The notes under the pieces are model-generated. The model did not search any database. It saw only the letters and a list, made by a program, of their open reading frames with translations, and was not told the origin of the DNA. This document shows positions 20,010 to 64,000 of a stretch of 64,000 nt of DNA, one piece after another. The DNA lies in the NCBI RefSeq assembly GCF_027579695.1, contig NC_083583.1, positions 5,519,705 through 5,583,704 of the forward strand. Reading direction: 5' to 3'. This DNA comes from Neoarius graeffei (lineage: Eukaryota; Chordata; Actinopteri; Siluriformes; Ariidae). A program made the position numbers and the translations under genes. Each line of letters begins with the position of its first letter. Position 1 is the first letter of the stretch.

Positions 20010-21856
20010 TACTTATTAAAAAGATTCAGCCGAATAAGAAAAATATATACCATACAACCCAAAAATATTACATTTAATAGATCTTAACCTTGAGAGGAAC
20101 AAAGAATCAGTAATTGCAAATGTCTTATTAAATTCTAAATTGGTTTAAAGAGGTGCTACTGTCTCTTTATGTCCTTGTCGCCACAAATATCCCTGCTGTG
20201 ACTGAGGGAACAACACGGGAAGTTGTCCCAGACCCAGGGGACCCACTGACATTTGAGATAAGCCTGTTTGATCAAAATATGTTGTCTAAAAGCTTCTGGC
20301 CAAAAAATATCGATCACATAACAAACTGCTGTTAATATTATTGACTAAAAAAAAAAAAATTACAAAATCCTGTCGGACTGAAATCCAAGGCCATGTATTC
20401 ATAATGCGCACTTAGAACAGATTGTTGACCTTTAGGAAGCAATTAAAAGAATTCTCTGCCTTGAACAACAACAGCTTGCATCGCTGGGGAAAAAATACAG
20501 CCGAAATGCAACGTAATGTCCTGACATCTCAAAACATGACCAGCTAAATGAACGCATTCACTCTCCCAGCTTCTGGTTCTCCTAAATAACAGGAATGTGC
20601 AACATGGTTCTGAATAATTGCTCTCATAATCATCAGTCCGCTGTGCAATTTAAGTACATTCAGTAATAATTGCTTGGAGATAATCATCTCTGTGTTTACG
20701 AGACGTGCTGAGAGCTCAGAGAAATCACACAGCGATATTAGGTGGTTGATGAAACATGTTTGTCTTCTTGGATGAGGAGTCAACAATGGCAAGTTGTATA
20801 TGAGTACTGTATGTAGTGCTCAGAAAGCTCCAGGACTGATGGATTGATGTTTCACATGTTCCCGCTGTGTCCATGTGGGCTTCATCCAGGTTCTCTGGTT
20901 TACTCTGACTGTCCAAACACATGGTGGTTGGTGGACGGGACCGTGAACTCTACCTGCATGTGAATGTGTGTATGCCGTCCTTACACCCAGGATCTATTCC
21001 CACCTCACAGTATTCCTGGGATCATCTCCAGATTCTCAGCCACACTGAACAGAATAACGCGCTTACTGGAAATTCATGTAGTGCCAATGCAGTGCCAATA
21101 ATTTTGCCTTGTGCTTTTGAAAAAAACAAAAACATGCAAATATTAGTCACAATGGAAGGTCATATCTATAATAAACTACGAGCACCCTCTTGTTGTTACA
21201 ATGCACTCCCGAGACATCACACATGTTCTTACCATTAGTTATCAAAATGCACAACACCGCATCGCTATATTTATCATGCATTATGAATTGTTAGCATCAT
21301 ATAATGTTTATAACATGCCTTATCACCAATTCCAAACAGCCCCATTTTGAAAAAAGAAAAAACACATTCTGAGACCTGATTTGATTTCTTCTCCTAAATA
21401 AATTAATTATACCAGAACGAAATACATCTTTAATGAATTTAATTAGAGCATTGTAGTGCCCCATCAGTCACCAAAACAGCGTTTTGCCATCTTCAGAACA
21501 TCTGCAGAATTCAAGGCTTACTCTCACAACAAGAACAGATCTTTATTCAGAAGACCTACGTCATACAATATGATTTTCAGTTGGGCTTTGGGAAAGGATG
21601 AAAAAAATATATATATACACATATACATAATAATAAAATACATATCATTAAAAACTACACTGAAGTAAACAGTTAGTAAGACATTCTAATAAATAATATG
21701 AACAAGAACATGACAATGGCAAAATAATGTTGAAAAAAAATATATATATATTATATATATATTATATATAAATAAAACTTTATTTAAAATAAAAATTAAA
21801 AGAACAAAGCGTAATTATTTAAGATAAAGGTACTTTTCACCGCTCTTTTAAATTTC
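20010..21856. other. No gene; AT-rich with an eroded SINE
   Basis: A very diverged plus-oriented SINE trace runs through about 20838-21055 ('ttcccgctgtgtccatgtgg', 'ttcccacctcacag'). AT-rich microsatellite tracts occur at about 21605-21640 and 21737-21775. No supported coding region. Confidence 0.5.
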
Positions 21857-22658
21857 TTAAAGCTAGACGGCCTTTCAGATTTTTCAAGTGTAGGTCATAA
21901 AAAGAATTTTCCCGACACCCAATTATTTTTGTTTAGTGGATCGAAAACTATTGAATTCAAATCATAGACTTCCAATTTTATTAGGCTTTTTAAAATAGAA
22001 CAATTCATGTATTTAAGGCCATGCAACCCTAAATTCTCGGCTATTTTTTCCCGCTTCACCATGACCCAATTCAAGATACTATGTCATGCATCACGTGGTG
22101 GGCTTTCCCTGTTCACGCAAGGCATTGTGGGATACAAATTTGAAACAGGAGAGAAAAATGGAGGACGTGAGTGTGCGAATGAAACGTGAAAGAGCGACTA
22201 CAGTGACAGAAAGAAAGCGAGAAGAAAAGACGTTATGTTCTATACGAAGGAAAGGAAACGCAGGACCAAACTAATAAATATGGGCGCTCAGCGAGCACCT
22301 CGGTGTGATCAGCTGTTCGTTTAGCGACAGAATGATGGAACTGTCAGTGCACGCTCAAAGGGAAACCTGTAGATGGCAGTAATGCAACACTGTGGATGCC
22401 AGCTGCCGTAAAACCCAAAAGAAGAAGAAGAAGGTAAACCTGCGCATGCGCACACGGACTTCCTCTGTCTGCTTGACTGCGCCAAGCGAGCGATTTCATG
22501 CACATTATTTGCTTTAATCCCCTCAAATTAAATAACTTCCCAGCCACAGAATGGCCTGATATTTTGTGAGATATTACAGAAATAAACAGATATCACAATC
22601 ACCACATTTCAGACGGAACTAAATTTCACCGATTTTATGAAAGGCCATTGAGCTTTAA
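21857..22658 (+). mobile_element. TTAA-flanked MITE, copy 1
   Basis: It starts TTAA-'agctagacggcctttcag' and ends in the imperfect complement ('aaggccattgagct'-TTAA), 802 bp. Internal landmarks shared by all three copies are 'cccgacacccaattattttt', 'cactgtcagtgcacgc'-type text, 'tgcgcatgcgcacacgg' and 'aacttcccagccacagaatg'. No transposase. The TTAA duplication suggests a piggyBac- or Kolobok-type helper, but the termini do not begin with the usual piggyBac CCC. Confidence 0.75.
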
Positions 22659-37100: not shown

Positions 37101-37708
37101 ATGCACAGGCCGAGAGTAACGTGGAGAGATCTAAAACCTGTACATACAACAAGAACTCCCTAGGATCAACTGTGAAAAAAATTCAGCAGACCTTTCGGAC
37201 ATTTTTTAGTTGTTGGAAAAAATCGAAATAAGTGTGAAAATGGCCAACATGGCTTTAACTCCGTGTTATTTCTCCACTGAAAGCCAACAGACAAGATTAC
37301 CCTCTGTGCAGGTCACAGATAGGACTGTGTTTAAAGAAAATACAACTAAAATTGACGCAGCTTTTAATCATTTCGACTGCAGTTCAGCCAAAGTAGGCGT
37401 CCCATGAACTTGCGGTCAACTCTGTGACGATGATTACATCTGCACGATTAACTCTGGTAAGCATTCAGCGTGAGGAAAGAAAGTGGCAGGCTACTCCCTG
37501 CATGCACGTGACCCTGGGCGATAAAAAGGTTGATACCAATGGACATAGCAAGCCAAAAAGCCCAAAATTTGTCAACTATGTGACGTCTAATTTAAGATAG
37601 ATTTAGCATTACCAATGCTGCTGCATACTGCAGTGCAGGCTACAATTCCATCAACAATGTCTACTGATGAAGCCCAATTCTAAACAACAAGCCATTTGAT
37701 CAAAATAC
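37101..37708. other. No recognised feature
   Basis: No domain or repeat boundary seen in this 600-bp stretch. Confidence 0.45.
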
Positions 37709-38220
37709 TTAAAGCTAGACGGCCTTTCAGATTTTTCAAGTGTAGGTCATAAAAAGAATTTTCCCCGACACCCAATTATTTTTGTTTAGTGACCAAAAGC
37801 TACTGAATTCGAATCACAGACGTCCAATTTTATTATTTTTACAAACAGAACAATTAATGAATTTATCTCCATGTGGCTCTAAATTCTCCCCTATTTTTTC
37901 CTGCTTCACCATGACCCGATTCAAGATACTACGTCATGCATCATGTGGTGAGCTTTTCCTGTTCGTGCAAAGCATTGTGGGGAAACAAATTTGAAACAAG
38001 AGAGAAAAATGGAGGACGTGAGTGTGCGAATGAAACATGAAAGACCGACGACATGAATGGAAAGTATAGAGGGCTTCCGGTGCCATGGATAGATAGGCAG
38101 CAAGGGTGAGGAGCTCTGACCACGCTTGAAAGTAACTTTTAAATTAACTGTCCAGTGGCCAATAAAACCCAATTTTATTAACGGGGAAAGGAGTATATAC
38201 GTTTTAGTTACAAACAGACG

Positions 38221-39105
38221 ATGAGCAAATCTTCAAGACAGAAGCCGAATTCTGCTCCACCGAACACAAGAAATACAATCGCCAACAAGTTAGCTGCAAT
38301 GGCGTCTCCTGCTAACCGTCCCTCCCAAGAAGAAGGAATATCAATGACCCAGTTAGTGCAAGAACTGTCTAAACAACGTGCCAGCATAAAGGAGGACATT
38401 TCCAGTCTCATCCAGGAATCTATCGGACCTCTACAAGCTTCTGTCGACGCCTTGCGAGAAACGGTGAATGGTTTTCAAACTCGCCTGACCGACGTAGAAA
38501 CTTTAGCAGGTGACAATTTCGAGAAAGTCACTGCAGCGGAGCTAGCCATTGACTCTCTACAAAAGCAGAATGCAGCACTGCTCGATTGCATTGAAGGTCT
38601 TGAAAACCGTTCACGCCGTCACAATTTGAGAATCGTAAATGTTTTAGAAGGCAGTGAAGGCAACCAAGACACTGTGGCATTTATGTCCAAAATGCTGATG
38701 GAGCTCACAGGCGAAAACCTATTCGACTCGGCGCCAGTCTTGGAGAGAGCGCATCGAGTAGGGAATGCCCCAGCGACTGCTGCGCAAAACCCACGAACAT
38801 TCCTGGTATGCTTTAACCGGTTTCAAGATAAGGAACGTCTCTTAAATTTTGCCAGGCAGAACACCTTGCAATACAAGAACGTCACTGTTCGGATTTACCC
38901 AGACTTCAGCACGAGTGTATTGAAGAAACGGAAGGGATTCAACGACATCAAGCACGCACTTTACTCAAAGGGGATAAAGTTCCGACTCCGGTTTCCAGCC
39001 ACACTACGTGTGTTCTTCGAAGGGGACACCCTGGACTTCGACACACCGGAGGAGGCACAGACATTCTATCACCGTCGGGTTATGGCGCCAGGTACCACAG
39101 AATGA
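38221..39105 (+). CDS. L1 ORF1p, RNA-binding chaperone
   Basis: A 294-residue protein in the layout of L1 ORF1p, which coats L1 RNA as a trimer and acts as a nucleic-acid chaperone in cytoplasmic particles. Residues ~1-40 are a basic, Ser/Pro/Asn-rich head. Residues ~41-130 form heptad-like helix with many Leu/Ile/Val and charged residues, consistent with the trimerising coiled coil. From residue ~132 'RRHNLRIVNVLEGSEG' begins the RRM, and 'ERAHRVG' at ~174-180 and 'RTFLVCFNRFQDKERLL' belong to it. The C-terminal domain (~215-285) has 'VRIYPDFS' and 'KGIKFRLRFPATLRV'. The start is the first ATG after the short 5' UTR. Length is normal for fish L1s. No frameshift is seen. Confidence 0.9.
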   Translation: MSKSSRQKPNSAPPNTRNTIANKLAAMASPANRPSQEEGISMTQLVQELSKQRASIKEDISSLIQESIGPLQASVDALRETVNGFQTRLTDVETLAGDNFEKVTAAELAIDSLQKQNAALLDCIEGLENRSRRHNLRIVNVLEGSEGNQDTVAFMSKMLMELTGENLFDSAPVLERAHRVGNAPATAAQNPRTFLVCFNRFQDKERLLNFARQNTLQYKNVTVRIYPDFSTSVLKKRKGFNDIKHALYSKGIKFRLRFPATLRVFFEGDTLDFDTPEEAQTFYHRRVMAPGTTE

Positions 39106-39770
39106 CAGCACCCAGGCTCTGGTTTACAGCCTGTCGAGGGTCAGTAACCTGCAGTGCTTGAACTCTGACTTAAACTCGCCATGCTTATGTCTACCCTACT
39201 GACTGTAATGACATATTTGGTACACATCAGGCCTTACCGGTCCTTCTATTCTCTCTATAATTTTTTTTTTTTTTGCAACTGTAATTTAATTCTAATGACG
39301 TGTGCCCACCTACTCAACAGCCTTAATGTGACAGTGGGGTTAGTGCACTTTAGTTGGCCTTCTCTCTCTCTCTCCTTTTCACTCCTTTTTTTTTTTTTTC
39401 TTCTTTCACGATAATTTTGGTGAACTCTACGACTACTTTGTTAACCATGATCATTAATCTCCACTCCAACTCAATGACAGTTTAACGGTCATTGCTCCAC
39501 AGCCTATAAGACGGTTTGGAATGTATCGGAAGACTCTGATATTATTAGAACAACGCCTGCAGTTTGTCTCTGTTCAGATGACAGACATAGGTATTGTATA
39601 TAGTTTGTTTAAAATGGGGAGGGCACTTTCAGGGGCTTGGATAGGTTTTTGTTTTATTAAAAGGGGACACACTGCCAAAGGGATTTATTTTTTCTTATGT
39701 GCATTTAAATACATGAAAACATTTTATTTAGTTATAGACTCATCTCATTACCTCCCATTTTTTCTCCTGT
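39106..39770 (+). other. L1 inter-ORF spacer
   Basis: 665 bp separate the ORFs, with T-rich runs near 39261-39275 and 39388-39400. The open frames inside it (up to 90 codons) are hydrophobic, T-rich translations without recognisable domains and are treated as chance. Confidence 0.6.
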
Positions 39771-42700
39771 ATGTCTTATTTGGATATGTCTGATGGTAAT
39801 ACACATAATGTCGGGCGTAATGTTTCCTCTTCACCAATACGATTTATAAGTTGGAACGTTAAAGGGCTCAACGGGCCAATTAAAAGAGCACGTGTCTTTT
39901 CCCATTTAAAAAAGTTAAAGGTGGGTCTCGCGTTTTTGCAAGAGACCCATATTACAGCTGCAGATCAGATTAGACTCAAGAAGAATTGGGTTGGTCAAAG
40001 CTTTCACTCCAGCTTCACTACTAAAGCGCGCGGGGTATCAATATTAATCCATAAAAGCATATTATTTACTCCATCCAAAGTAATCTGTGATCCTCAAGGC
40101 AGATTTCTAATTGTGCCAGGTTCTCTCTTCAACATCCCCATAATACTTGTAAATGCGTATGCCCCAAACTGGGATGACAGCAGCTTTATTTCTAAACTTT
40201 TCTCCCTCATACCAGACTTGGACACACACAGGCTTATCCTAGCTGGTGATTTTAATACTGTAATTGACCCGTCTATGGACCGTTCATGTCCTAAAACCCT
40301 TACCCGATCTAAAATGTCTCAAATACTTTCTGACTTAACACATAAGATTGGTTGTGTGGACCCATGGAGATTTTTATATCCCCAGAAAAAGGATTTTTCC
40401 TTTTATTCTAATGTACATCACACATACAGCAGGATAGACTATTTCTTTATTGACAAAACATTTCTCCCTGCTGTTGAGAAAGTTGAATATATGGCCATTG
40501 TAGAGTCCGACCACGCGCCTGTAATCCTTGATATAACATTTTCACAAAATCTTACACAACATAATACCTGGAGATTAAACACTGCCCTACTAGCTGATGA
40601 TAAATTCTGCAAACACATTTCAGGGGCCATAGATGAGTTTCTAGAATTCAACAGAAGTGACTCAATTTCTCCATCTACTCTGTGGGAGACACTAAAAGTT
40701 GTCATAAGAGGTGAGATCATTTCATACTCCACATCACGTAATAAGGAAAAGAAGCGGAAGGAGAGAGAGCTTATTTCAGCAATTAAAAAAATAGACCACC
40801 AATATTCTATAACCCCCACACCGGAGCTAAACAAAGTTAGAATTGAACTGAAAACTCAGTATGACTTGTTATCCCTGGAAAGAACTGAGAAGCACCTGCT
40901 ATGGTCCAAAGGACATTACTACGAGCATGGTGACAAAGCTAGCCGTCTTTTGGCCTATCAATTAAAAAGTAGAGCTGCCTCACGCCTGATCCCACAGATT
41001 CGTACATCTTCACAAGTATTAACCATAGACCCAAGGGAGATAAATGCCACCTTCAAAGAATTCTACTCAGAATTGTATACATCTACATTCCCACAAGACA
41101 CCTCAAACATGAAAGAGTTTTTAGATGACCTTGAATTCCCCTCTCTAGAAGACGCTGCGAGAGACGAGTTAGATAAACCTCTACAATTACAGGAAATTGC
41201 AGATGCCATTAAGAACATGCAGAATAATAAAACTCCAGGTCCTGACGGCTACCCTGTCGAATTTTATAAAAAGTTTAGTGCAAAGCTAGCTCCAATCTTG
41301 TCAGAAATGTATAATTACTCTTTAGAACAAAACACTCTTCCACATAGTCTTACTGAGGCCTCCATCTCACTCATTCTAAAACCAGGTAAGGATCCACTTG
41401 AGTGTGGTTCCTATCGACCAATCTCTCTTTTAAATACAGACGTTAAAATATTAGCTAAGCTCCTAGCTTTAAGATTAGACAAAGTCATATCTCCTATTAT
41501 CTCAATGGACCAGACTGGTTTTATGAGGAACCGACATCCTTTTGTAAATATCAGGAAATTGCTTAATGTTATTCACTCCCCAGCGTCCAGGGGGGTGCCA
41601 GAGGTGGTTGTCTCCCTGGACGCAGAGAAAGCTTTTGATAGAATAGAAATGCCTTACTTATTTGCTGTATTAGAGAGATTTGGCTTTGGTACTACATTTA
41701 TCTCTTGGATCAACCTGTTATACGCTTCACCCAAAGCATCAGTGCTGACTAACAGGGTAGCCTCTCAATTCTTTCATTTGTCAAGGGGCACCCGACAAGG
41801 GTGCCCCCTTAGCCCTCTGTTGTTTGCACTGGCGATTGAACCCCTGTCCATTAAGCTAAGATCTTCTACTAACATACAGGGCATCCATAGAATGGGAACT
41901 GAGCATAGGCTATCTCTCTATGCTGACGACCTTTTGCTGTACATTTCAGATCCAGTCAGATGTGTTCCTCTTATTATCAACTCTTTAAAAGAGTTTGGTG
42001 TGTTTTCTGGTTACAAATTAAACCTAGCTAAAAGTGAATGTTTTCCCATCAATACTTTGGCACTTCAACTTTCAGACAGTGAACTTCCATTCCGCATATC
42101 AAAATCTGGCTTTAGATACCTTGGTATAAATATCACCCGTTCTTTTCCTGATCTCTTCAACAAAAACATTACCCCTCTTATTAATAATCTAGAATCTGAT
42201 ATTAAAAGATGGTCTGCACTCCAATTATCACTTGCAGGTAGAGCGAACTGCATAAAAATGAATGTGCTTCCTAGATTCTTATATTTGTTTCAGTGTCTTC
42301 CTATCTTCCTTCCTAAGTCATTCTTTCAATCACTGAACAAGCTACTCTCTTCATTTCTATGGGACTGTAAAACCCCCAGAATTCGCAGGGAACTTCTGGA
42401 AAGGCCCAGAGATGTAGGCGGCCTAGCACTTCCCAACTTGAAATATTATTACTGGGCTTGTAACATACACAAAGTTATATACTGGTTTCAAACCCCAGAC
42501 GCAGACTGGTGCCAAATTGAGGCAAATTCTTGTCTATCCACTTCACTCTCTGTTTTGATAACGGCTAAACTACCACTATCACCCTCACATTTTACGTCCA
42601 GCCCAATAGTAACCTCAACTCTCAAAATATGGGCACAGTTTAGACAACATTTTAAACTCACAGAATTTTCCTTATACAGTCCAATCTGTAAAAACCACCT

Positions 42701-43604
42701 CTTTCCAGCTGCCCAGCTAGACCATACATTTACTGAATGGCAAAGGAAAGGTTTGGATAGGTGTGTTGATTTCTATATAGATGGTATTTTTGGTAGTTTT
42801 ACTGAAATAGCTGGCAAATACCAATTGCAACGTTCAGATTATTTTAGATACCTCCAGGTTCGACATTTCATGCGGACACTAAGCCCAACTTTCCCACACT
42901 TGCCAGTGGAATCAGGGCTGGAGAAGGTTCTGGGGATCAACATGGTACACAAAGGTCAAATTTCATCCATCTACAATTTAATCTCTTCCATTCAATGTGT
43001 AACACTAGATAAATTCAAAAATGACTGGGAGGAAGAACTGGGAACAGAAATTTCAGACACTATTTGGGAATATGCTCAAAATACAGTCAACGGCACAACA
43101 TCTTGTGCACGCCTGAGCTTAATACAATTCAAAGTTTTGCACAGGACATACTACACCAAATCAAAGTTGTCCAAGATATATCCAGACATTGAAGATAGGT
43201 GTGATCGCTGTAATTCACCTTCAGCTAACATGACTCATGCATTTTGGTCCTGCCCAAAGTTAATAGACTTTTGGTCAGATGTCTGCAAAACTTTGAACGA
43301 GGCGTTCGATACCAATATACAACCCACTGCAGAACTTGCCATTTTTGGAATAGTGGACCCTGAGATCCCAATGACATCCAAGCAAGTAAATGCTTTTGCT
43401 TTTGGCTCTCTTTTGGCTCGTAGAAGGCTTGTCTTACAGTGGAAATCCCCTCACCCTCCAAAAGCATCAACTTGGCTCAGTGACTTAATGCTTTTTCTAA
43501 AATTAGAAAAAATCAAATACTTCATCAGAGGATCAAAAAAATCATTTCATAAACTGTGGGACCCATTGATCTCATACTTTCAAACCCTTTCCACTCTCCC
43601 CTAA
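39771..43604 (+). CDS. L1 ORF2p: endonuclease and reverse transcriptase
   Basis: A 1277-residue intact protein that nicks target DNA and copies L1 RNA from the nick. The AP-like endonuclease occupies about residues 22-255: 'SWNVKGLNGPIKR' (N29), 'QETH' (E58), 'AGDFN' (D160, N162), 'SRIDYFFID' and 'SDHAP' (D247, H248), so the catalytic residues look complete. The reverse transcriptase covers about 450-780: 'LILKPGKDPLECGSYRPISL', 'DQTGFMRNR', 'SLDAEKAFDRIE', 'RGTRQGCPLSPLLF' and the catalytic YADD at 717-720. A C-terminal CCHC knuckle, C1144-x2-C1147-x8-H1156-x4-C1161, is present. The first ATG is used; M6 is an alternative start. The L1/Tx1 clade is inferred from ORF1 type and CCHC spacing; an RNase H domain is not seen. 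Confidence 0.95.
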   Translation: MSYLDMSDGNTHNVGRNVSSSPIRFISWNVKGLNGPIKRARVFSHLKKLKVGLAFLQETHITAADQIRLKKNWVGQSFHSSFTTKARGVSILIHKSILFTPSKVICDPQGRFLIVPGSLFNIPIILVNAYAPNWDDSSFISKLFSLIPDLDTHRLILAGDFNTVIDPSMDRSCPKTLTRSKMSQILSDLTHKIGCVDPWRFLYPQKKDFSFYSNVHHTYSRIDYFFIDKTFLPAVEKVEYMAIVESDHAPVILDITFSQNLTQHNTWRLNTALLADDKFCKHISGAIDEFLEFNRSDSISPSTLWETLKVVIRGEIISYSTSRNKEKKRKERELISAIKKIDHQYSITPTPELNKVRIELKTQYDLLSLERTEKHLLWSKGHYYEHGDKASRLLAYQLKSRAASRLIPQIRTSSQVLTIDPREINATFKEFYSELYTSTFPQDTSNMKEFLDDLEFPSLEDAARDELDKPLQLQEIADAIKNMQNNKTPGPDGYPVEFYKKFSAKLAPILSEMYNYSLEQNTLPHSLTEASISLILKPGKDPLECGSYRPISLLNTDVKILAKLLALRLDKVISPIISMDQTGFMRNRHPFVNIRKLLNVIHSPASRGVPEVVVSLDAEKAFDRIEMPYLFAVLERFGFGTTFISWINLLYASPKASVLTNRVASQFFHLSRGTRQGCPLSPLLFALAIEPLSIKLRSSTNIQGIHRMGTEHRLSLYADDLLLYISDPVRCVPLIINSLKEFGVFSGYKLNLAKSECFPINTLALQLSDSELPFRISKSGFRYLGINITRSFPDLFNKNITPLINNLESDIKRWSALQLSLAGRANCIKMNVLPRFLYLFQCLPIFLPKSFFQSLNKLLSSFLWDCKTPRIRRELLERPRDVGGLALPNLKYYYWACNIHKVIYWFQTPDADWCQIEANSCLSTSLSVLITAKLPLSPSHFTSSPIVTSTLKIWAQFRQHFKLTEFSLYSPICKNHLFPAAQLDHTFTEWQRKGLDRCVDFYIDGIFGSFTEIAGKYQLQRSDYFRYLQVRHFMRTLSPTFPHLPVESGLEKVLGINMVHKGQISSIYNLISSIQCVTLDKFKNDWEEELGTEISDTIWEYAQNTVNGTTSCARLSLIQFKVLHRTYYTKSKLSKIYPDIEDRCDRCNSPSANMTHAFWSCPKLIDFWSDVCKTLNEAFDTNIQPTAELAIFGIVDPEIPMTSKQVNAFAFGSLLARRRLVLQWKSPHPPKASTWLSDLMLFLKLEKIKYFIRGSKKSFHKLWDPLISYFQTLSTLP

Positions 43605-44699
43605 GACCACATATTGCGACCCGACATTAGCATCTATAAAAACTATACATACATCTGTGTATAAGATAAGTTAATGTACTGCACATGTAACTGCGCATAT
43701 ACATGAGTGTATGCACAATGTCCTCAGACATCTTCATTAGGAGCGAGACGTGCTATATCTTATTTTGATTTTAAGTTTTATTAATTTATTTACTTACTTA
43801 TTTTATTTATTTATTTTCTACCTTAATACATCTTATGTGCACATTTTTTTTTTTTAATTTCAATCATCACAAGGCAGTGTGTGTGGGAAGTAGGGGTGGG
43901 CATTGGATAGGTCTGTTTACTCTCTGTTTGTTAAAAAATCTATAAAACAAGAAGAATATGTACCATAATGGTTCTGTACGACCAAACTTTTCTTCAATAA
44001 AAAAAAAAAGAAAAAAAAAATGAATGGAAAGTATATACGAAGGAAAGGAAACGCAGGACCAAACTAATAAATATGGGCGCTCAGCGAGCACCTCGGTGTG
44101 ATCAGCTGTTCGTTTAGTGACAGAATGATGGAACTGTCAGTGCACGCTTAAAGGGAAACCTGTAGATGGCAGTAATGCAACACTGTGGATGCCAGCTGCT
44201 GTAAAACCCAAAAGAAGAAGGTAAACCTGCGCATGCGCACACGGACTTCCTCTGTCTGCTTGACTGCGCCAAGCGAGCGATTTCATGCACGTTATTTGCT
44301 TTAATCGCCTCAAATTAAATAACTTCCCAGCCACAGAATGGCCTGATATTTTTGAGATCGTACAGAAATAAACATACATCACAACGACCACATTTCAGAC
44401 GGCACTAAATTTCACCGATTTTATGAAATCGAAAGGCCGTCTCGCTTTAAAGATTACAGCCGCCAGGACTGTATTGCATTACAGGAATAGATAGTAGCTG
44501 GTCTATCAGTCACATAGTTGACATCTCACAAAATGATGTGTGATTCGTGTTCTATCCTGAAAAACATAAAAGCATTTGAGCGCGGCTCTGCTGTGGACCT
44601 TTTACGTGGGACGTGCTACTATTATTTGGCAGTATTTACAGTATACCAAAACCCAACATTCTTCATTTTTACCAAATTGCCCACCTCAAATTTCTCAGT

Positions 44700-45065
44700 A
44701 TTCACAGAGACTCTCAAATCTGCTCCAGCTCCGGTCACCACTGAGGGTCAGGACATCGAGGTGGTATAGAACTACCTGGGTGTCCACCTGAGTGACCAGC
44801 TTTGGTGGGACATGAAGATGGACAGCCTGGACAAAAAGGGACACATTCTCTGAGGGATGAGGCTGAACCTTTGGAGTGTGAGCTCCACTGCTATGAACGT
44901 TCTACAAGTGTTGTGTCAAAGCACCATCTTTGATTCTGCAATGATCTGAAACAACCAGCACCAGTAAAATCCTGTATAGACCTGGATCAGTTATGGGTTC
45001 CAGACTGGATGCAGAAAAGGTGGCAGCGGGGAACAGGATGCTGTCCAAACTCTTCCTCCGTCACT
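44700..45065 (+). pseudogene. LINE (L2/Rex1-like) C-terminal remnant
   Basis: Frames on the plus strand give 'NYLGVHLSDQLWWDMKMDSL', 'DKKGH' and, further on, 'SRMDAEKVAAGNRMLSKLFL', the 'YLGVHLDxxLxW..LxKKGxxRL' region after the RT of L2/Rex1-type LINEs. Stops interrupt it. It may be the same family as 4171-4395. Confidence 0.6.
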
Positions 45066-45814
45066 AAAGGAACTGCTTGGCCCCCTTAATTCTTGCTTGC
45101 AGCCATATTTTTAACAGAATGATCTGCTGCTGCTTTTTTTTTTTCTTTCTTAGGTTCTCTATTGCCTCCTTTGGGCTGCTCCAAGGCTGAAATTTCACAG
45201 CGCGGATGAAGTGTCTTATCTTATCACGCAGGCGGAGAAAACTAACAGGCAAGACGCCTCAAATGCAAATCAACATCATTCTATTTACATAAATTTACAT
45301 TATAAATCACTGAAATATTAATAAACAATTATTAAAACTGGCTTTTTTTTTTTTAATTTCTTACCCAAGTCTAGAAAGTACAACGTCGTCATTTATGCTG
45401 TCGGTTTTCTCCGCGTAACTTTTAGCGTATTTTATACAGAATTAATTAAAAGTCATGACACTTTCCAGCGACAGGATTCACAGAGAATTGTAGCTCGTTA
45501 CTAAGTTCCTCCTAAATGGTAATAAAAGCTTCTTCAAGGAGAGTCTTTTACGAAGTATTTCCAAAGCTGAGAAGCTGGGTGGAGCCTGTTACTATAGATA
45601 GAGTATTTCAACAAATGAACATTGACTGCAATTGGCTTATGTGGTTGCAATCTGGGCTGTAAATTAAAAAAATAAATAAAAAATTCTTGTTTTTTCTTAC
45701 CCATTCCTGTTAGTATTTTCCTTTCTTTCTTCCCCCTTTCATTATTTCTTTGTGTCTTAGTAGTTAGTATCTTCTTTCTTTTCTTTTCTTCAGACTTCCG
45801 AGTCTTCTTTTTAT
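45066..45814. other. No gene; pyrimidine-rich 3' part
   Basis: Unique-looking sequence, then a C/T-rich tract (about 45685-45810). The basic, Lys/Arg-rich minus-strand frame over it is a low-complexity artefact. Confidence 0.5.
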
Positions 45815-46250
45815 GCCTCCGCCACCTTAAGGTGCAGGAGGCATTATGTTTTTGGGTTGTCCGTGCGTGCGTCAGTCCTGAAACCTTGTGAACGCGATAT
45901 CTCAAAGGCTAATGAAAGGAATTTCACCATACTTTCACCATTTGTGCACTTTGGGACAAACATGAACTGATTAGATTTTGAGGTTAAAAGGTCTAAGGTC
46001 AAGGTCACTGTGAGGTCAAATGTCTGTCCGAAAACCTTGTGAACACTATCTCCAAGGCAGATGAAAGGAATTTCACCATACTTTCACCATTTGTACACTT
46101 GGGGACAAACATGAACTGATTAGATTTTGAGGTTAAAAGGTCTAAGGTCAAGGTCACTGTGAGGTCAAATGTCCATCCCCAAATCACAACTTAATAAGGC
46201 GTGTGGTCTACCAGGCGGAGGCGTCCCCATCGACGCCGCTGGTATAGAGT
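45815..46250. mobile_element. MITE with 'gcctccgcc' termini and an internal tandem duplication
   Basis: The left end 'tatgcctccgccaccttaag' and right end 'ccaggcggaggcgtcccc' carry complementary 'gcctccgcc'/'ggcggaggc' cores. Inside, a ~145-bp unit beginning 'aaaccttgtgaac' and ending 'gaggtcaaatgtc' is repeated twice (about 45883-46024 and 46031-46172) with few differences. Non-coding. Confidence 0.65.
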
Positions 46251-46745
46251 TCTATCTAGTCTTTCGTCCTTTCTAGCGTGCATTTAAGTGTTTTTTCCTT
46301 TCTGTTGTTTGGACTTTCTTATTCGTCTTTTTCCATTCAGTCTCTTATTAATTTCTCTTTTTTCTTAGCCCCCCCTTCCTTCTTATTTTCCCCTCTATTA
46401 GTTTTTTCCTTTTCCTTATTTCTCATAAGTTCTGTCTTCTTATGAGCATTTTGTTTCTTTCCCTTTATCTTTGTTTTTCTTTCTCTCTTTTTTCTTCCCA
46501 TCCTTCCTCCCTCTCTCTCTCACTCATTGGTATTTTCTCTTATTTTTTTCCTCCTTTAAAAAGCTTGCCATCATTAAATACATAAAATAATCTCTAGACG
46601 CAGCCGATTACGATGGTTTTTGCTTTTAGTGTTTAGGATTCCTGTGGATTAAACAGTTACTGAATCAGAACAAGAAAAAAAAAAAAAAAAAACCTCTTTT
46701 AGCCCTAATTTTTGAAGGAAACCTCTCCTAAATCAGGCGACTCAG
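46251..46745. repeat. Pyrimidine-rich low-complexity tract
   Basis: Dense TTTCTT/TTCCTT runs from about 46258 to 46560, then an A20-type run near 46675-46692. No coding content. Confidence 0.7.
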
Positions 46746-46751
46746 AGGTAC

Positions 46752-47262
46752 GTTTAGACTACGTTCAGACTGCACCCTGAAACGACCCATATCCGATTTT
46801 TTTTGCCCATATGCGATCTGTATCCGATTTGTTATTGACAATCTGAACGACACTGATCCGATTTTTTTCACGTGCGACCCAGGCCGCTTGGATATGTAGT
46901 CCTAATTCTGATGCATATCCGTTATTTTCACATGCGACTGCAGTCTGACGGGACAGGTCGCATTCATGCGACCTACACGTCATCAACAAGAGACAAACGT
47001 CACTATTCTGCGTTGGCTAATCCCGCCTCTTTGGAAGAGTGCGCTTTTTTTTTTTGTTTATGTATTACATAGATGTGCTTATTACGTGTCAATTTGCGCA
47101 GGCGGGACACTTTTGGGTCGTTTTCCGTTCATATTGGAGATCGCATACAAGTCTCATATAATTGGTAATGTGAACGGCCTAACAAAAAAAAAAAAAAAAA
47201 TCGGATTTCACAACAAATCGGATATGGGTCGTTTCAGGTTGCAGTCTGAACGTAGTGTTAGT
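46752..47262. mobile_element. hAT-like MITE ('ctacgttcagactgca' termini)
   Basis: Left end 'ctacgttcagactgcaccct' with 'gaaacgacccatatccgatt'. The right end is its complement ('aatcggatatgggtcgtttc', 'cagtctgaacgtag'). The inverted repeats are ~40 bp. The 'atccgat' motif recurs inside. No transposase. Confidence 0.8.
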
Positions 47263-47514
47263 TTCAGGAGTCTTTCTGAATCTGACTCCAACTGTTCAGG
47301 AGAAATCAAAAACGTTAAACAGCACTCGCTCTCTCTCACACCCAAATTCACAACAGGACTCAGAAGTGGTCATACTTTTCCCAACGGGACTTTATCTTCA
47401 TTTCAAGTATTCAAAACTTAAATAAAAACAAAGTTTTAAATAGTGAGCAACTTTTGCACATTTGCCACATTTTCTTTTCCATTTCAGTTGTACCCCAAAC
47501 CCTTATAAACAACT

Positions 47515-47550
<36 letters not shown>
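47515..47550. repeat. (CA)n microsatellite
   Basis: About seventeen CA units. Similar tracts lie at 18039-18074, 18664-18695 and 54262-54288. Confidence 0.95.
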
Positions 47551-47553
<3 letters not shown>

Positions 47554-48991
47554 TCAGAGCTGGAATCTTACCAGGGAACTTTACAGAGATAATAAACAGG
47601 GCAGAAACAGAGGATCGGCTGCAAGGTGACGGGAAACAAATCGGGAAGACGGGATGAAGTCCGGCTCACAGCTGCTGGTGATACGAAGCTTTAACGTCCA
47701 TCTTTAAGCATCACATGATATGCTTACATCACATCAACCAGCAGAGAGGAACAACTGGCGATGTCAGGGCCCTGATGCAAGGCACCTTGTGATGATCGAG
47801 GAACGAGTTCTCTTCCAATCTCTCTCAAACTGCAGCGCTGATCAATTCCGGATTCTGATTGGTCGGAAGGGGTTGATTCATTTTCTATAACAGCAGCTCC
47901 AAATCTCATTCACAATGGCTTTAAATAAAAACAAAGTGTAATCAATCTGTGAGGAGACGTTTATGGAAGGAGTCTCCAATGTCAGCGCTTCGTAATCTCC
48001 ATCCCCCCCCCCAACGTCTTCAGGACAGAATAGTTTACACTTTGTGATTTCTTGGTAATGAGACAAGCTGTGTTTTTGTGTCTTGTTAACTTTGAGAGCG
48101 AGAGGGAAAGAAAAAAAAAACGAGTCTGGTAAAGGAACGACCGTTTATAGCTGCTATAACAAGTGAAAACAGGAACCATCTTTTGCATTGAATGCAAAGT
48201 CAGATCCATAAGTATTTGGACAGTGACAAATTTCTGTACTGTTGCCTCTGTACACGCCTACAATGGGTTTGAAACGAAGCCATCAAGATAGCTAACAAAT
48301 ATTAACTGTTTAGGAGTTACAGCCGATTTTTACATAGCCCCTCCATTTTCACAGGCTCAAAAGTAACTGGACAATCAATAATCAGATTTATACTTGGATC
48401 CGAATACCATGGACTTCACCAAACACCGAGTTTCCTCCCTCAGGCCTTTACTGCAGCCGCCTTCAGTTGCTGCTTGTTTGTGGGGGTTTTCTGCCTTCAG
48501 TCAATGAAAAGCAGCTCAACTGGGTTGACTGACTCGGCCATTTAAGAACGTTCCATTTCTTTGCCTGAAGAAGCTCTTAGGTTTCTTTCGCAGGACGTTT
48601 TGGGTCGTGAAACACCATCTGATCAGTTTTGCAGCATTTGACTGAATCGGAGCCGAAAGTAAAGCTCTATACACTTCAGAATTCATCCTGCGACTTCTCT
48701 CAGCAGTCACATCACCAATAAACACCAGTCACCCAGTTCCAACGGCAGCCCCACACACCCAGATCCACCATGTTTGACAGAAGATCTCAAGCCCTTCCTT
48801 TCCTTCTCCATACTCTTCTCTTCCCATCACTCTGGTACAAATTCATCATGGTTTCATCTGTCCACAGAAGCCTGTCCCAGAACTAGGCCACCTTTCTAGC
48901 AAAGTCTAATTTGGCCTTTCTGTTCTTGAGCATTGGCAGTAATTTGCATCTTGAGGTCAACCCTGTATATTTACAAGAAAACCCTTCATTT

Positions 48992-49073
48992 TCTTTTTTT
49001 TTAAAGATATTTTTTGGGCTTTTTTCACCTTTATTGGATAGGACAGTGTAGAGACAGGACAGGAAATGAGTGG

Positions 49074-49104
<31 letters not shown>

Positions 49105-49183
49105 AGGGATCGGGAAATGACCTCGGGTCGGAATCGAACCCGGGTCCCCGGACTTATGGTACGGCGCCTTAGCCACGATGTCC
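48992..49183 (-). mobile_element. Third SINE type with GA-repeat body
   Basis: On the minus strand a tRNA-like head 'gacatcgtggctaaggcgcc' with B box 'gggttcgattccgacc' is followed by a (CT)n tract and a tail ending in A-rich text. The flanking duplication 'aacccttcattttctt' (left at ~48978, right at ~49187) is perfect, so the copy is young. It is the only copy of this family here. Confidence 0.85.
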
Positions 49184-49562
49184 CCAACCCTTCATTTTCT
49201 TGACTTGGCTACGTTTTGCGAGGGGTTTTTCCTTCACTAAAGAAGGAATTCAACAACCATCCACTTTAGTTGTCTTCCGTGGTCTTCCACATCTTTTGGT
49301 GTTCCTGAGCTCGCCAGTGCACTCCTTCTTTTCCTTCTCTTTAAAGCTGCACCATATTGTTGCGATGGCCTCTCCTAAAGTTCCTGCTGTCTCTCCGATA
49401 GGTCTGATTTGTTTTCAGCCTAATGATGGCCTCCTTCACTTTCACTTTGGACTGCATAATGAGAGTTCACATGAACAGCTAGGAATCAACTCCAGACTTA
49501 TACCCTGTGTCCAAAATCACTCACTACTCCCTATATAGGGAATTACTATATAGAGGACTATA

Positions 49563-50090
49563 CACTACCGTTCAAAAGTTTGGGGTCACTTTGAAATGTC
49601 CTTATTTTTGAAAGAAAAGCACTGTTCTTTTCAATGAAGATCACTTTAAACTAATCAGAAATCCACTCTATACATTGCTAATGTGGTAAATGACTATTCT
49701 AGCTGCAAATGTCTGGTTTTTGGTGCAATATCTCCATAGGTGTATAGAGGCCCATTTCCAGCAACTCTCACTCCAGTGTTCTAATGGTACAATGTGTTTG
49801 CTCATTGCCTCAGAAGGCTAATGGATGATTAGAAAACCCTTGTACAATCATGTTAGCACAGCTGAAAACAGTTGAGCTCTTTAGAGAAGCTATAAAACTG
49901 ACCTTCCTTTGAGCAGATTGAGTTTCTGGAGCATCACATTTGTGGGGTCGATTAAACGCTCAAAACGGCCAGAAAAATGTCTTGACTATATTTTCTATTC
50001 ATTTTACAACTTATGGTGGGAAATAAAAGTGTGACTTTTCATGGAAAACACAAAATTGTCTGGGTGACCCCAAACTTTTGAACGGTAGTG
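49563..50090. mobile_element. 528-bp Tc1/mariner-type MITE, copy 2
   Basis: Same termini and length as 28573-29100, flanked by TA (49561-49562, 50091-50092). Nested in the Tc1-like element of Family M copy B. Confidence 0.95.
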
Positions 50091-50450
50091 TATAAAGGCT
50101 GTCATTCCGAGACATTTAACATGATCTTTTTGTTAAAACAGCTTGAATTAAAGATAAAGGTCTCCACCTCAGTCACATCTTGACGGCTTCATTTCAAATC
50201 CATTGTGGTGGTGTACAGAGACAGAACCATAAAATGTCCAAATACTTATAGACCAGATTGTAGCTATAAATGGGAAATAAGAAACAAATGAAATTGTTGA
50301 CAAATTTGTCACGTAGAAGAGGATGAAAATGCTTCAGGAAGTCATGTTATAGGAAAACAAATCAACTTTGTCGTGGTAGTCGTAGTCCGTGAACGAGGCT
50401 GCTTCCCACCACCTCTTCGTTGATTATTTTCCTACAACAGCATTGTGCTA

Positions 50451-51690
50451 TTTAAAAACATAAATAAAAAAAAATTCCAATTTTCTACACAGAAGAGAGT
50501 GCGATTTTAAAAAGTACGACGCATTCGAGTCCTTAACTTGAGACTTTGCGTAAATCGTCTACAGTTGTTTCCGTGATCCATTTTCCTTTTTCATATTTAA
50601 AACAAAAATACACAACTTAACGATGATTAGTGCTATGATTAGGTTTAACATTTACAGAAAAGAGGTATTGAATGAGAACATGATCATTAGAGCTCACAAA
50701 TCATGCTCTGCGTTTGCCCATGATGACAAAAGATAATGCCGTATGTGAATCACACGCTCGGTTCATAACGACTCCAAGGTGCTTTCAAGATCAAAATATC
50801 CAGCGGAGTTGAAAATTGTCAAAATCAAAAAACAAAAAACCTCATTGGTGTGTGGAATGTTGCCTGGTGATGAGAAATTCACAGATGTCCCAATGTATGA
50901 GCACCTATGGCATGGAAGTCTGCCATTTTACAAATCCTACTCCAGAGAATTCACACGCAAAATTATTTCTCGCCATGACCTGCTCGCTCGGACGCAATGG
51001 CGTAGAGAATCAGCACCAATTACATTTCAGAAGGAAAAAAAAAAACACCAGTAAATAAAACAACGTCAGTTCTGTGCTCTATAGATACGCTTACAATACG
51101 AGAGTGTACGAAAGTGTATCCACGAAAAAAAAAAAAGCCCCATGGTGCTACATGACTCATCAGATAGGTTTCTTCAACTGATTCCAGCAGAGCAGAGCAC
51201 ACCATTTAAAAATAACATCAGACTGATGTCACGCAAGTATCATTACTTTACAAAACATTTACAAGACCAACGTCCGTATTAAGTGCATTTTAACAAGATA
51301 CAAAAGTTAATTAAAAGAAATACACTCATCCACTCTCTCCCCCCGTTCTCCCGTATCTATAGTGCGTGTGTGATCACGACAGACAAGAATTCCGACAATT
51401 TCTTGGAGAAAATAAATAAATAAATAAATAAAAACTGAACAAAAATAATTTGTTTCCTCAAAATTCACTTCCAACGCAAGTCTAAGAGCAGATGTTCGAT
51501 TTCCATACTAAACATTCACGTGAACGCATTTTCCCGAGAAAGCCTTTGAATTGTTTTGTCACGTGCTGTGTTACAGAGAAGAGCGCTATCTGCCCTCTTC
51601 CGCATACATTGCTAAACAGAAGCCTGGGATTGGCTAGCTATTTTAAAATTTCAAAAAAGTACAATTCAATTTTACATTATATTTACACAA
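50451..51690. other. No recognised feature
   Basis: AT-rich sequence with no domain, repeat boundary or splice pattern. It could include distal 3' UTR of kmt5b, but no clear leftward polyadenylation context was identified. Confidence 0.4.
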
Positions 51691-51694
51691 CGTT

Positions 51695-51860
51695 TGGGAG
51701 AAGTCATGGCCTAATGGTTTGAGAAGCAGCTTTGGGACCAAAAGGATGCCGGTTTGATTCCCTGGACCAGCAGGAATGGCTGAGGTTCCCTTTAACAAGA
51801 CCCTGGGTGTGTCGTACATTGCTCTGGATAAGAGCGGCTGTTAACGTAATGCAAAAATCA
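51695..51860 (+). mobile_element. tRNA-headed SINE with L2-like tail, copy 1
   Basis: Head 'catggcctaatggtttgaga', B box 'ggtttgattccc', 'gaccagcaggaatggctga', and tail 'ctctggataagagcggctg', a 3' end shared by many fish SINEs and L2 LINEs. Confidence 0.8.
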
Positions 51861-52127
51861 TTGACTTTAAGATGCGAGGTTTATATTTAGTTCTAATCAG
51901 CTATCCCAAATCTTTTGCAATGAACCTTGTGACAACAATGCGACCAGAACTCGGCTAACGATTTTCCAGTTTGCTCGCATCTTAAAGGCCTTGTGTTTGG
52001 ATTTCGGCGTCTAAGCAGCTGGTTGTCATTTGATCCTTTGTGCAAGATGAATGTCAACTTCTGCTAGCTTCATACTTAATAATTGAATACTAACTAGCTG
52101 AAGTAACAAATGCACTTTTGTTTTAAA

Positions 52128-52280
52128 CAAGACAGCCATGGCCTAATGGTCAGAGAAGCAGCTTTAGGACCAAAAGGTTGCCAGTTTGAGTCCCTGGACC
52201 AGCAGGAATGGCTGAAGTGCCCTTGAGCAAGGCTCCTAACCCCCAACTGCTCCCCAGGCTGCTCTGAATAACGTATTTGA
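52128..52280 (+). mobile_element. tRNA-headed SINE with L2-like tail, copy 2
   Basis: Same family and orientation as 51695-51860 ('catggcctaatggtcagaga', 'gcccttgagcaaggctcct'), with the tail degraded after 'gctgctctgaataac'. Confidence 0.8.
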
Positions 52281-52883
52281 GAACGATACAGGTCTGTCTT
52301 TATTAGAGAATAATAATTTTTAATACGAAACAATTTGTTTGTGTTTACTGATGTATCTGATGGTGTAATGATTGACACAAACTTCAGGAAACTTTTTACT
52401 GGATCGCTCCGTCAGAACAACGTTGGTAAGATTTTCCAAAACGAAAAAGACATCTTTCACGTCCGTCCTTTCCGCTTCAGCGAACTGGCTTTTGCGCCAG
52501 GCGAATTGTATTAACGTTTGGTCAAAAACTGTAAATGCTACAGCAACACCGTAAAGGTCTCACATCAGTCTCCTCCTCACACGTTTAGTGTTTTGGTTGC
52601 TGGTTTCGATTTACGTTCCACGGTTATATATTTTAAATTTGACATTTGCCCATAGACCACCATGGACTAAGTGCCATTTTAGCATAAAAAGTTTGCTATT
52701 TTACTATTCAGGGAAATGCTGAAATTCTTATCCACAGTAATCACACACAACGCTAGAGATACGGTGAAGAGAGAACAGACTGAAAATAAAAAGCTCAAGT
52801 TATTCCTTGAATGATGCATTTCTTTTCAGTGAAATGATAAAGTTAACCTGAAGTTTATGTACACGTGAATCTTAAATGTGAGC
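52281..52883 (-). other. Probable start of the kmt5b 3' UTR
   Basis: This segment follows the kmt5b stop codon in the sense of transcription. A minus-strand AATAAA is present near 52297-52303 (plus strand 'tttatt'), about 580 nt beyond the stop. Assignment is by position only. Confidence 0.35.
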
Positions 52884-62506
<9,623 letters not shown>

Positions 62507-62862
62507 CTAGTCGGAATGAAATCAGAACACAGCAGCCGTCATGGATTTCGTACGGCGCGCCCACATTTATGAACATCCATGTTTTCAGGAAAGACTTTCC
62601 AAATCACTGGTTTCTTTCTTTTTAAATAAAAACATCTGAAATCAGCGGCTTTATACAAATCATCCAAATCTGTATACATTTTCTACTTGTCTATAATAGA
62701 ATATTGATAAAATAACTGGCCAAAAATAAGATTTTCTAGGAAAAAAAACAAAAACAAACACCAGATCAACAATAAATAGATATTTTAGAATTCAAAAATG
62801 AACAATGTTTTATTCCTCCACATGGACAACTGGTTGACTTGAACTGTTTGTGATATTTCGAG
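62507..62862 (-). other. kmt5b intron, no recognised feature
   Basis: AT-rich intronic sequence upstream of the first visible exon. Confidence 0.6.
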
Positions 62863-63616
<754 letters not shown>

Positions 63617-64000
63617 GAGAGGTTTTAATCAATTCGGCCTGAAAGATACAAGCAGCACTCCATAAAGAAAATTAATGGTTTTTTTTTTACTTATTTATTT
63701 TTATTACAGCTCAAGCTTCCAGATATATAAAACAGAATCATGCTTTTTTTTGGACAAATATTAGACACCAATCATCTCCACATCCCTTTGATCATGACTG
63801 TAGTTGAACATGATCTTTATCCTGATTTCTATTACATGCTTAGCTTTCTGTAAAACTATTTTTAATGAAAGTTAAAAAAAAATAATAATAAATAAAGCCC
63901 GCCTCCGAAATCAGCCATCCACTACATTTTGTTCCGAAATGATATTTTCTGTAATTTTGGTCAACATTAACAATTTTAAACCTTATTATTTAATATTCAT
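63617..64000 (-). other. kmt5b intron, window edge
   Basis: AT-rich; no upstream kmt5b exon is recognisable before the window ends. Confidence 0.55.

Follow-up and report, generated by a model that had tools for sequence, protein, structure and literature searches.

A young, complete L1 insertion in the fish Neoarius graeffei and a small open reading frame that may lead ribosomes to ORF2

How ribosomes reach the second cistron of an L1 retrotransposon is a long-standing problem, and it is raised by a locus in the genome of the fish Neoarius graeffei, where the two long open reading frames (ORFs) of an L1 lie 665 bp apart and a small frame between them runs into the start of ORF2. The window analyzed here is the whole stretch of 64,000 nucleotides (contig NC_083583.1 of assembly GCF_027579695.1, positions 5,519,705 to 5,583,704); coordinates are counted from its first letter, and the L1 and its target site are described on the plus strand. 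As judged from sequence comparisons, this L1 is almost certainly a young complete copy, inserted in an older miniature inverted-repeat transposable element (MITE) and forming part of a very small family whose sources were recently active. A second proposal is put forward tentatively, as quite possible though short of probable: the fish L1s of this genome would use a dedicated relay ORF of 70–120 codons, little constrained and separate from ORF1, with its stop codon held at the ORF2 AUG, and ORF2 would be translated by coupled termination-reinitiation. The best explanation of the locus as a whole, which we consider fairly probable, combines the young L1 insertion with a small-ORF relay for ORF2. 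If true, a small-ORF stop at the ORF2 start gives a simple, testable answer to the translation problem in fish L1s.

The element occupies positions 38069–44019 (5951 bp) and consists of a 5′ untranslated region (UTR) of 152 bp (38069–38220), ORF1 (38221–39105), an inter-ORF region of 665 bp (39106–39770), ORF2 (39771–43604), a 3′ UTR (43605–43995), and an AATAAA followed by a poly(A) tail (43996–44019). Both ORFs are uninterrupted. ORF1 encodes 294 amino acids (aa) and ORF2, counted from its first ATG, 1277 aa; comparison with a sister family makes the second ATG, at 39786, the more likely start, in which case ORF2 would have 1272 aa and the inter-ORF region would extend to 39785. The 16-mer ATGAATGGAAAGTATA is repeated exactly on both flanks (38053–38068 and 44020–44035, 16 of 16 positions identical) and represents the target-site duplication of an element that would have landed by target-primed reverse transcription. 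Because eight full-length copies have nearly identical ends, their 5′ starts agreeing to within a few bases, the window L1 can be regarded as complete. The sequence-only reading of this locus, which had described a complete L1 with two intact ORFs, poly(A), and a perfect 16-bp target duplication, is thus borne out on these points. The base composition of the element is split, with ORF1 being rich in GC and CpG (48% GC, CpG observed/expected ratio of 0.91) and ORF2 poor in both (40%, 0.38).

The assignment to L1 rests on both proteins. Residues 19–1243 of ORF2 align to human L1 ORF2p with an E value of 5e-182 (among PDB sequences only), whereas the best R2 protein in the PDB is far weaker (E 4e-20). 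Among Pfam models, RVT_1 and Exo_endo_phos score above their cut-offs and zf-RVT just below. The endonuclease domain (39825–40535) carries, in alignment to the human enzyme, the residues N (WNVKG), E (LQETH), D and N (GDFNT), D (YSRID), and D and H (SDHAP), and the reverse transcriptase (RT) domain (41376–42134) contains YADD at 41919–41930; these residues we take to be the catalytic ones. A C-terminal C-x2-C-x8-H-x4-C motif, to which the zf-RVT match corresponds, starts at ORF2 residue 1144 (43200–43253); the last quarter of ORF2, searched alone, had no PDB match at 1e-5. The endonuclease, YADD, and Cys/His residues picked out from the letters alone are therefore present. ORF1 matches the RNA recognition motif (RRM) and C-terminal domain (CTD) region of L1 ORF1p (E 1e-7), although no Pfam L1 ORF1 model matched it at E 0.01; its coiled coil is judged from sequence only, and it has two cysteines only and no CCHC knuckle. 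Thus, the element combines an apurinic/apyrimidinic endonuclease (APE)-type endonuclease and an RT nearest to L1 ORF2p with an ORF1p of the coiled-coil/RRM/CTD type, a poly(A) end, and target duplications at varying sites. Set against the traits of the sister clade Tx1, its dispersed sites and an ORF1 devoid of CCHC speak for the L1 clade. As an L1, the window element is a new member of an already known kind.

The age of the insertion was assessed in the genome from which the window is taken (2.34 Gb, 38 contigs); repeat counts from these searches are lower bounds. A query with the whole element yielded 46 matches (from the best 35 of 492 first-look candidates, which were scored), ten places being 98–100% alike and the rest 67–80%. 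The 3′ end (43500–43995, all 21 candidates scored) matched ten places at 92–100% and then only fragments of at most 113 nt, and the 5′ UTR (all 8 candidates scored) matched eight places. This group, family A, has at least ten 3′ ends in the genome, belonging to the eight full-length copies, one 5′-truncated copy with a 16-bp duplication of its own, and one copy that enters unread sequence on its 5′ side. Over positions 38072–43990, the copy closest to the window L1 (L009) differs at 15 of 5913 sites (0.25%; 99.75% identical) and the most distant pair within the family at 73 of 5890 sites (1.24%). The window L1 has seven private substitutions (0.12%) and L009 six, corresponding, very roughly, to an age of 0.1–0.6 million years for the window copy at an assumed 2e-9 to 1e-8 substitutions per site per year. 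The near-identical copies expected of a young insertion were thus found, and the youth of this one stands.

The full-length copies sit at different sites, except for L010 and L011, which lie 20 kb apart on contig C13, have identical flanks, and differ at 22 of 5908 sites; the shared flanks indicate that one of them arose by duplication of the segment holding the L1. Exact flank repeats of 14–19 nt (16 in the window) surround six of the eight, that of L015 being mostly a run of A, and such runs blur the edges of other copies too; in the remaining two, L011 and L013, the exact repeat is only 9 nt long, the longer repeat of L013 containing a mismatch. The 1277-aa ORF2 is open in five full-length copies (window, L009, L012, L014, and L015) and broken in three, whereas ORF1 has 294–295 aa in six, 310 aa in L012, and is broken in L010, leaving both ORFs at their usual length in four of the eight. 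The general expectation that fish L1 copies are mostly truncated or mutated accordingly holds here for mutation (ORF2 broken in three of eight) and fails for truncation, which affects one of the nine copies with a readable 5′ side.

Substitution patterns within family A bear on whether any of these copies have been replicating. With the C13 pair treated as a single insertion and the majority base as the ancestral one, changes in ORF1 and ORF2 shared by two or more insertions have a replacement-to-silent ratio (N:S) of 15:27, far from the neutral expectation of 71–72% replacement (binomial p = 3e-6 against 0.71), whereas private changes, at 30:14, fit neutrality (p = 0.74). Of the 78 private changes 22 are CpG transitions, against 6 of the 64 shared ones. 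Since shared changes are mostly silent and private ones neutral, selection appears to act on replicating sources, with copies decaying neutrally after landing; judged by these patterns, the source lineages of family A were recently active. For the window copy itself the evidence differs. Three of its seven private substitutions are CpG transitions and three change amino acids, namely R123C and S234L in ORF1 and N277D in ORF2; each of the two ORF1 replacements is a CpG transition, and the sister family has R and S at the corresponding positions (by eye). With three private replacements, its intact frames are no proof that it works. The suggestion that it might be an active source is hence upheld for the family and finds no sign of offspring from this copy, as it and L009 carry separate private substitutions.

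The target site fits the same history. The L1 splits a TTAA-bordered MITE with inverted ends at 37709 and 44450, the left part of which (37709–38068) carries the inverted end TTAA...GACGGCCTTTC and the right part of which occupies 44036–44450. Its joined flanks align to two other MITE copies in the window, at 21850–22642 (89%) and 55333–56072 (86%; broken after 56072, with the last piece at 56749–56792), and a further copy lies in the fetched flank of another L1 locus, L030, supporting insertion into an older TTAA-type MITE. A stretch that is missing at the L1 site is present in these MITEs, with 25 nt in each of the two window copies and 21 nt in the L030 copy; as both 16-mer copies span this deletion, it preceded the L1 insertion. 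The MITE had also been held to give a clean empty-site reference: paralogous empty sites do exist, but they carry the 21–25 nt lost at this site before insertion. Outside the MITE ends, a perfect 15-bp inverted repeat, TGTCAACTATGTGAC, is found at 37570–37584 and 44509–44523; perhaps it marks the ends of an older element holding the MITE.

The sister family, F2, comprises L028, L029, L030, L031, and L033, each with an ORF2 of 1271 aa, as well as L034 and L027. Its ORF2 is identical to the window ORF2 at 846 of 1271 residues, and its five open ORF2s differ from one another by 1–18 sites. In L028 (which goes with L046), identical 15-bp sequences, ACACGTAAGAAATAG, are present on both sides (by eye). 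The compositional split of family A recurs in F2, where the part of ORF1 examined is likewise rich in GC and CpG, with a CpG observed/expected ratio of 0.92, against 0.45 in ORF2. Window positions 38070–38121 have a counterpart of 56 nt near the F2 5′ end (75% in alignment; L046 positions 1247–1302). CTTCCGG and GCCATG are common to both versions of this module, which is a candidate internal promoter; the UTRs of the two families otherwise differ. Beyond the two families, an endonuclease query returned 6138 candidates, and among the 149 scored, more than 50 outside family A lie in open frames of 1268–1283 aa; by this measure the L1 population of the N. graeffei genome is diverse and recently active.

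Central to the proposal on ORF2 translation is the small ORF at positions 39521–39793, which has 90 codons from its ATG in a frame open from 39458 and overlaps the ORF2 start, such that the probable ORF2 ATG and the small-ORF TGA together form ATGTCTGA at 39786–39793. It is kept at 90 codons in all eight full-length copies of family A, including those with broken ORFs, and at 86 codons in six of the seven F2 copies. In the seventh, L027, a tRNA-like repeat (by eye) is inserted at the small-ORF stop, adjoining the ORF2 start. A neighboring frame early in the inter-ORF region, a lenient control because it holds runs of T, varies from 22 to 78 codons among family A copies and from 60 to 90 in F2.

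The arrangement extends beyond these two families. Nine L1 families were read, each by one copy. In every one of them, the longest frame at the ORF2 ATG has between 69 and at least 120 open codons; relative to that ATG, it stops at −7, −3, +1, +5, +5, +5, +8, +13, and +17, the window offset being counted from the second ATG, the one aligned with the F2 start (from the first it would be +20). In all nine, the stop overlaps the downstream AUG or lies within a few nucleotides of it, which is the configuration of coupled termination-reinitiation. Published forms of such coupling are AUG-nX-UGA with X of 2, 5, 8, or 14, UAAUG, and AUGA (PMC5972666). The corresponding spacings are X=2 in the window (ATGTCTGA) and in L048 and L049 (ATGGCTAA), X=5 in F2, X=14 in L041, X=10 in L026, and AUGA in L040, whereas in L047 and L050 the stop falls just before the ORF2 ATG. 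These spacings resemble the known ones, and the best single mechanism would be reinitiation. A query with the L041 peptide recovered nine diverged copies (35–55% identity, E 0.01–0.6; L040 and L026 among them) with 82–116 uninterrupted codons; in the L048 family, eight copies, the query included, that match at least 87 of 89 residues have 90–112 open codons; and in the L049 family, 5 of 12 matches are free of stops over 83 or more of 87 residues, with 108–148 open codons, while others carry stops.

We propose that ribosomes would reach ORF2 through the small ORF just upstream, with its stop at the ORF2 AUG, and that those finishing the small ORF would reinitiate on ORF2. They may arrive at the small ORF by reinitiation after ORF1, by an internal start, or on a separate or spliced mRNA. 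The small ORF would work by the position of its stop and not by its peptide. In comparisons among five families (842 codon comparisons), differences at its three codon positions are flat (348/375/384), whereas in ORF2, compared between the window and five loci of the families that share a conserved inter-ORF block, they are about 0.23/0.19/0.55; N:S within the small ORF is 4:3 in family A (proportional ratio pN/pS 0.36, like ORF1) and 5:1 in F2 (pN/pS 1.3). Flat codon positions and these counts indicate that the peptide is hardly selected, and since, in addition, the frame relation to ORF2 varies, a relay is inferred in preference to a third protein or a frameshift. A frameshift fusion of the small ORF to ORF2 is rejected as the common function because the frame offset differs between families.

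Several observations weigh against a relay. The flat codon positions and the F2 ratio just given are among them, as is the sampling. Families A, F2, L026, L040, and L041/L035 were found by homology of ORF2 and the inter-ORF block, not by the openness of the frame, whereas L047–L050 are four read among 20 further copies chosen, all with a long open ORF2, and all four are reported. Before these last four were read, the stop was expected 1–20 nt after the ATG; two of them have it there (+5 and +5), and the others stop just before the ATG (−7 and −3); the range of −8 to +18 was set afterwards. Furthermore, five of the nine families have a homologous block in common and hence are not independent. 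The start of the small ORF is not conserved, being ATG in A, L040, and L041 and, at the same place, GTG in F2 and L026; in L026 and L048, the frame has its first ATG as late as 28 and 31 codons from the stop. In L035, a member of the L041 family, the small ORF is down to 71 codons; some closer copies of L041 carry stops in it, and the L050 family includes several copies in which frameshifts or stops interrupt it. Several ATGs lie between ORF1 and the small ORF, and the arrangement has been read in one genome only. TGGGA, which we take to be the 18S-complementary motif 1 of the termination upstream ribosome-binding site (TURBS) of caliciviruses and influenza B, is absent within 120 nt upstream of the stop in all nine families, and a TURBS-type site is accordingly rejected. 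So is a structure downstream of the ORF2 start of the kind reported for SART1, for which folding z scores are inconsistent (+0.16 in the window, −2.19 in F2).

The alternative that survives best, and one we regard as a serious possibility though not the likelier outcome, is that this is an ordinary young L1 whose small frame is a functionless by-product of a T-rich (37% T), stop-poor inter-ORF region. The missing third-position signal, the unconserved start codon, the range widened after the fact, and the block common to five families all speak for it. What it accounts for poorly is the frequency of the arrangement: among 1982 ATGs elsewhere in the window (positions 1–37500 and 44600–62500, both strands), 107 (5.4%) have at least 68 open codons ending at −8 to +18, compared with nine of nine families at the ORF2 start, and dinucleotide shuffles, which preserve the T-richness, yield 0.011–0.073 per family. 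Nor is the neighboring inter-ORF frame kept among copies.

A somewhat more doubtful alternative, compatible with a relay, is that the inter-ORF block controls ORF2 as an RNA or DNA element, be it a hairpin, an internal promoter, a splice acceptor, or an internal ribosome entry site (IRES), which the frame only accompanies. The block surrounds the small-ORF start and is conserved in families A, F2, L026, L040, and L041/L035; over its first 45 codons, it is less diverged than the third positions of ORF2 and shows no codon bias. Within it, a possible RNA hairpin of 12 pairs (39556–39591) is paired in 97.2% of cells with two compensatory pairs, in an alignment of six sequences, two of them from one family. 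Of 500 shuffles, 11–13 reach its covariation measures, 31 its share of cells paired, and 414 its number of pair types; its folding z score, −3.2 in the window, weakens to between −0.95 and −1.27 in three other families, and the hairpin is suggestive only. Outside the five families, the block is barely recognizable, with matches of 27 nt in L047 and 40 nt in L049 and nothing in L048 or L050, yet in L047–L050 too the stop lies near the ORF2 start. Indel lengths in the small-ORF region were not used as support, one-base gaps in the first half of a pairwise small-ORF alignment of two families having become gaps of 3 or 6 in the multiple alignment.

A coding role for the small ORF, with a hydrophobic peptide as a third L1 protein, is very unlikely: the frame is open in all eight full-length family A copies, has the ORF1-like pN/pS given above, and in five of nine families has slightly more T at second than at third codon positions, but the other four have less, the codon-position differences between families are flat, pN/pS in F2 exceeds one, and none of the three peptides tried matched Pfam, which together rule it out as the main explanation.

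Two further features of the window lie apart from the L1. A minus-strand open frame of 306 aa (52884–53804), with much Ser, Asp, Glu, and Lys, resembles a host exon; it matches no Pfam model above cut-off and nothing in the PDB at 0.01. At 62766–63665, a long purine-rich simple-repeat tract (GAAA-like) yields long spurious ORFs on both strands.

In SART1, a silkworm non-long-terminal-repeat element, ORF2 is reportedly translated via a stop-start overlap, as described by Kojima et al. in 2005. Human LINE-1, the better-known relative, shares with the window L1 its two ORFs, APE-type endonuclease, RT, C-terminal Cys motif, L1-type ORF1p, poly(A), and a target duplication of about 15 bp; unlike human LINE-1, the window L1 has a small ORF that overlaps the ORF2 start. 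Copies of human LINE-1 are very many, whereas ten were found of family A, mostly full-length. Family A thereby offers a compact model of L1 dynamics, with few copies, mostly full-length, in which source selection and copy decay are both visible. In the lizard Anolis, L1 likewise comprises several families, each of few recent copies, and has one sub-clade with a short 5′ UTR; there, about 40% of polymorphic insertions are full-length (PMC5389967), as against eight of nine family A copies with a readable 5′ side. The fish L1 clade likewise has an AT-rich ORF2 and diverse old lineages within one genome (PMC7140322); that study compares the base composition of fish L1s, and its accessible sections do not treat the inter-ORF region.

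A literature search of partial coverage, over titles and the openings of abstracts, returned no description of a small ORF before ORF2 in fish L1s, and the arrangement would be new if it works as proposed. The closest parallels concern coupling itself. SART1 and human L1 are named as retrotransposon cases of it (PMC5972666), and in both, ORF2 translation depends on translation of ORF1 (PMC2881922). In SART1, as proposed here, a stop-start overlap couples translation to ORF2 (PMC5972666, PMC2881922), but there the upstream frame is ORF1 itself, whereas in the fish L1s it is a separate small ORF behind ORF1. In human LINE-1, the inter-ORF spacer measures 63 nt (PMC5972666), compared with 665 bp in the window L1, and, if the small-ORF relay is real, fish L1s would provide a natural contrast to this short spacer of the mammalian element.

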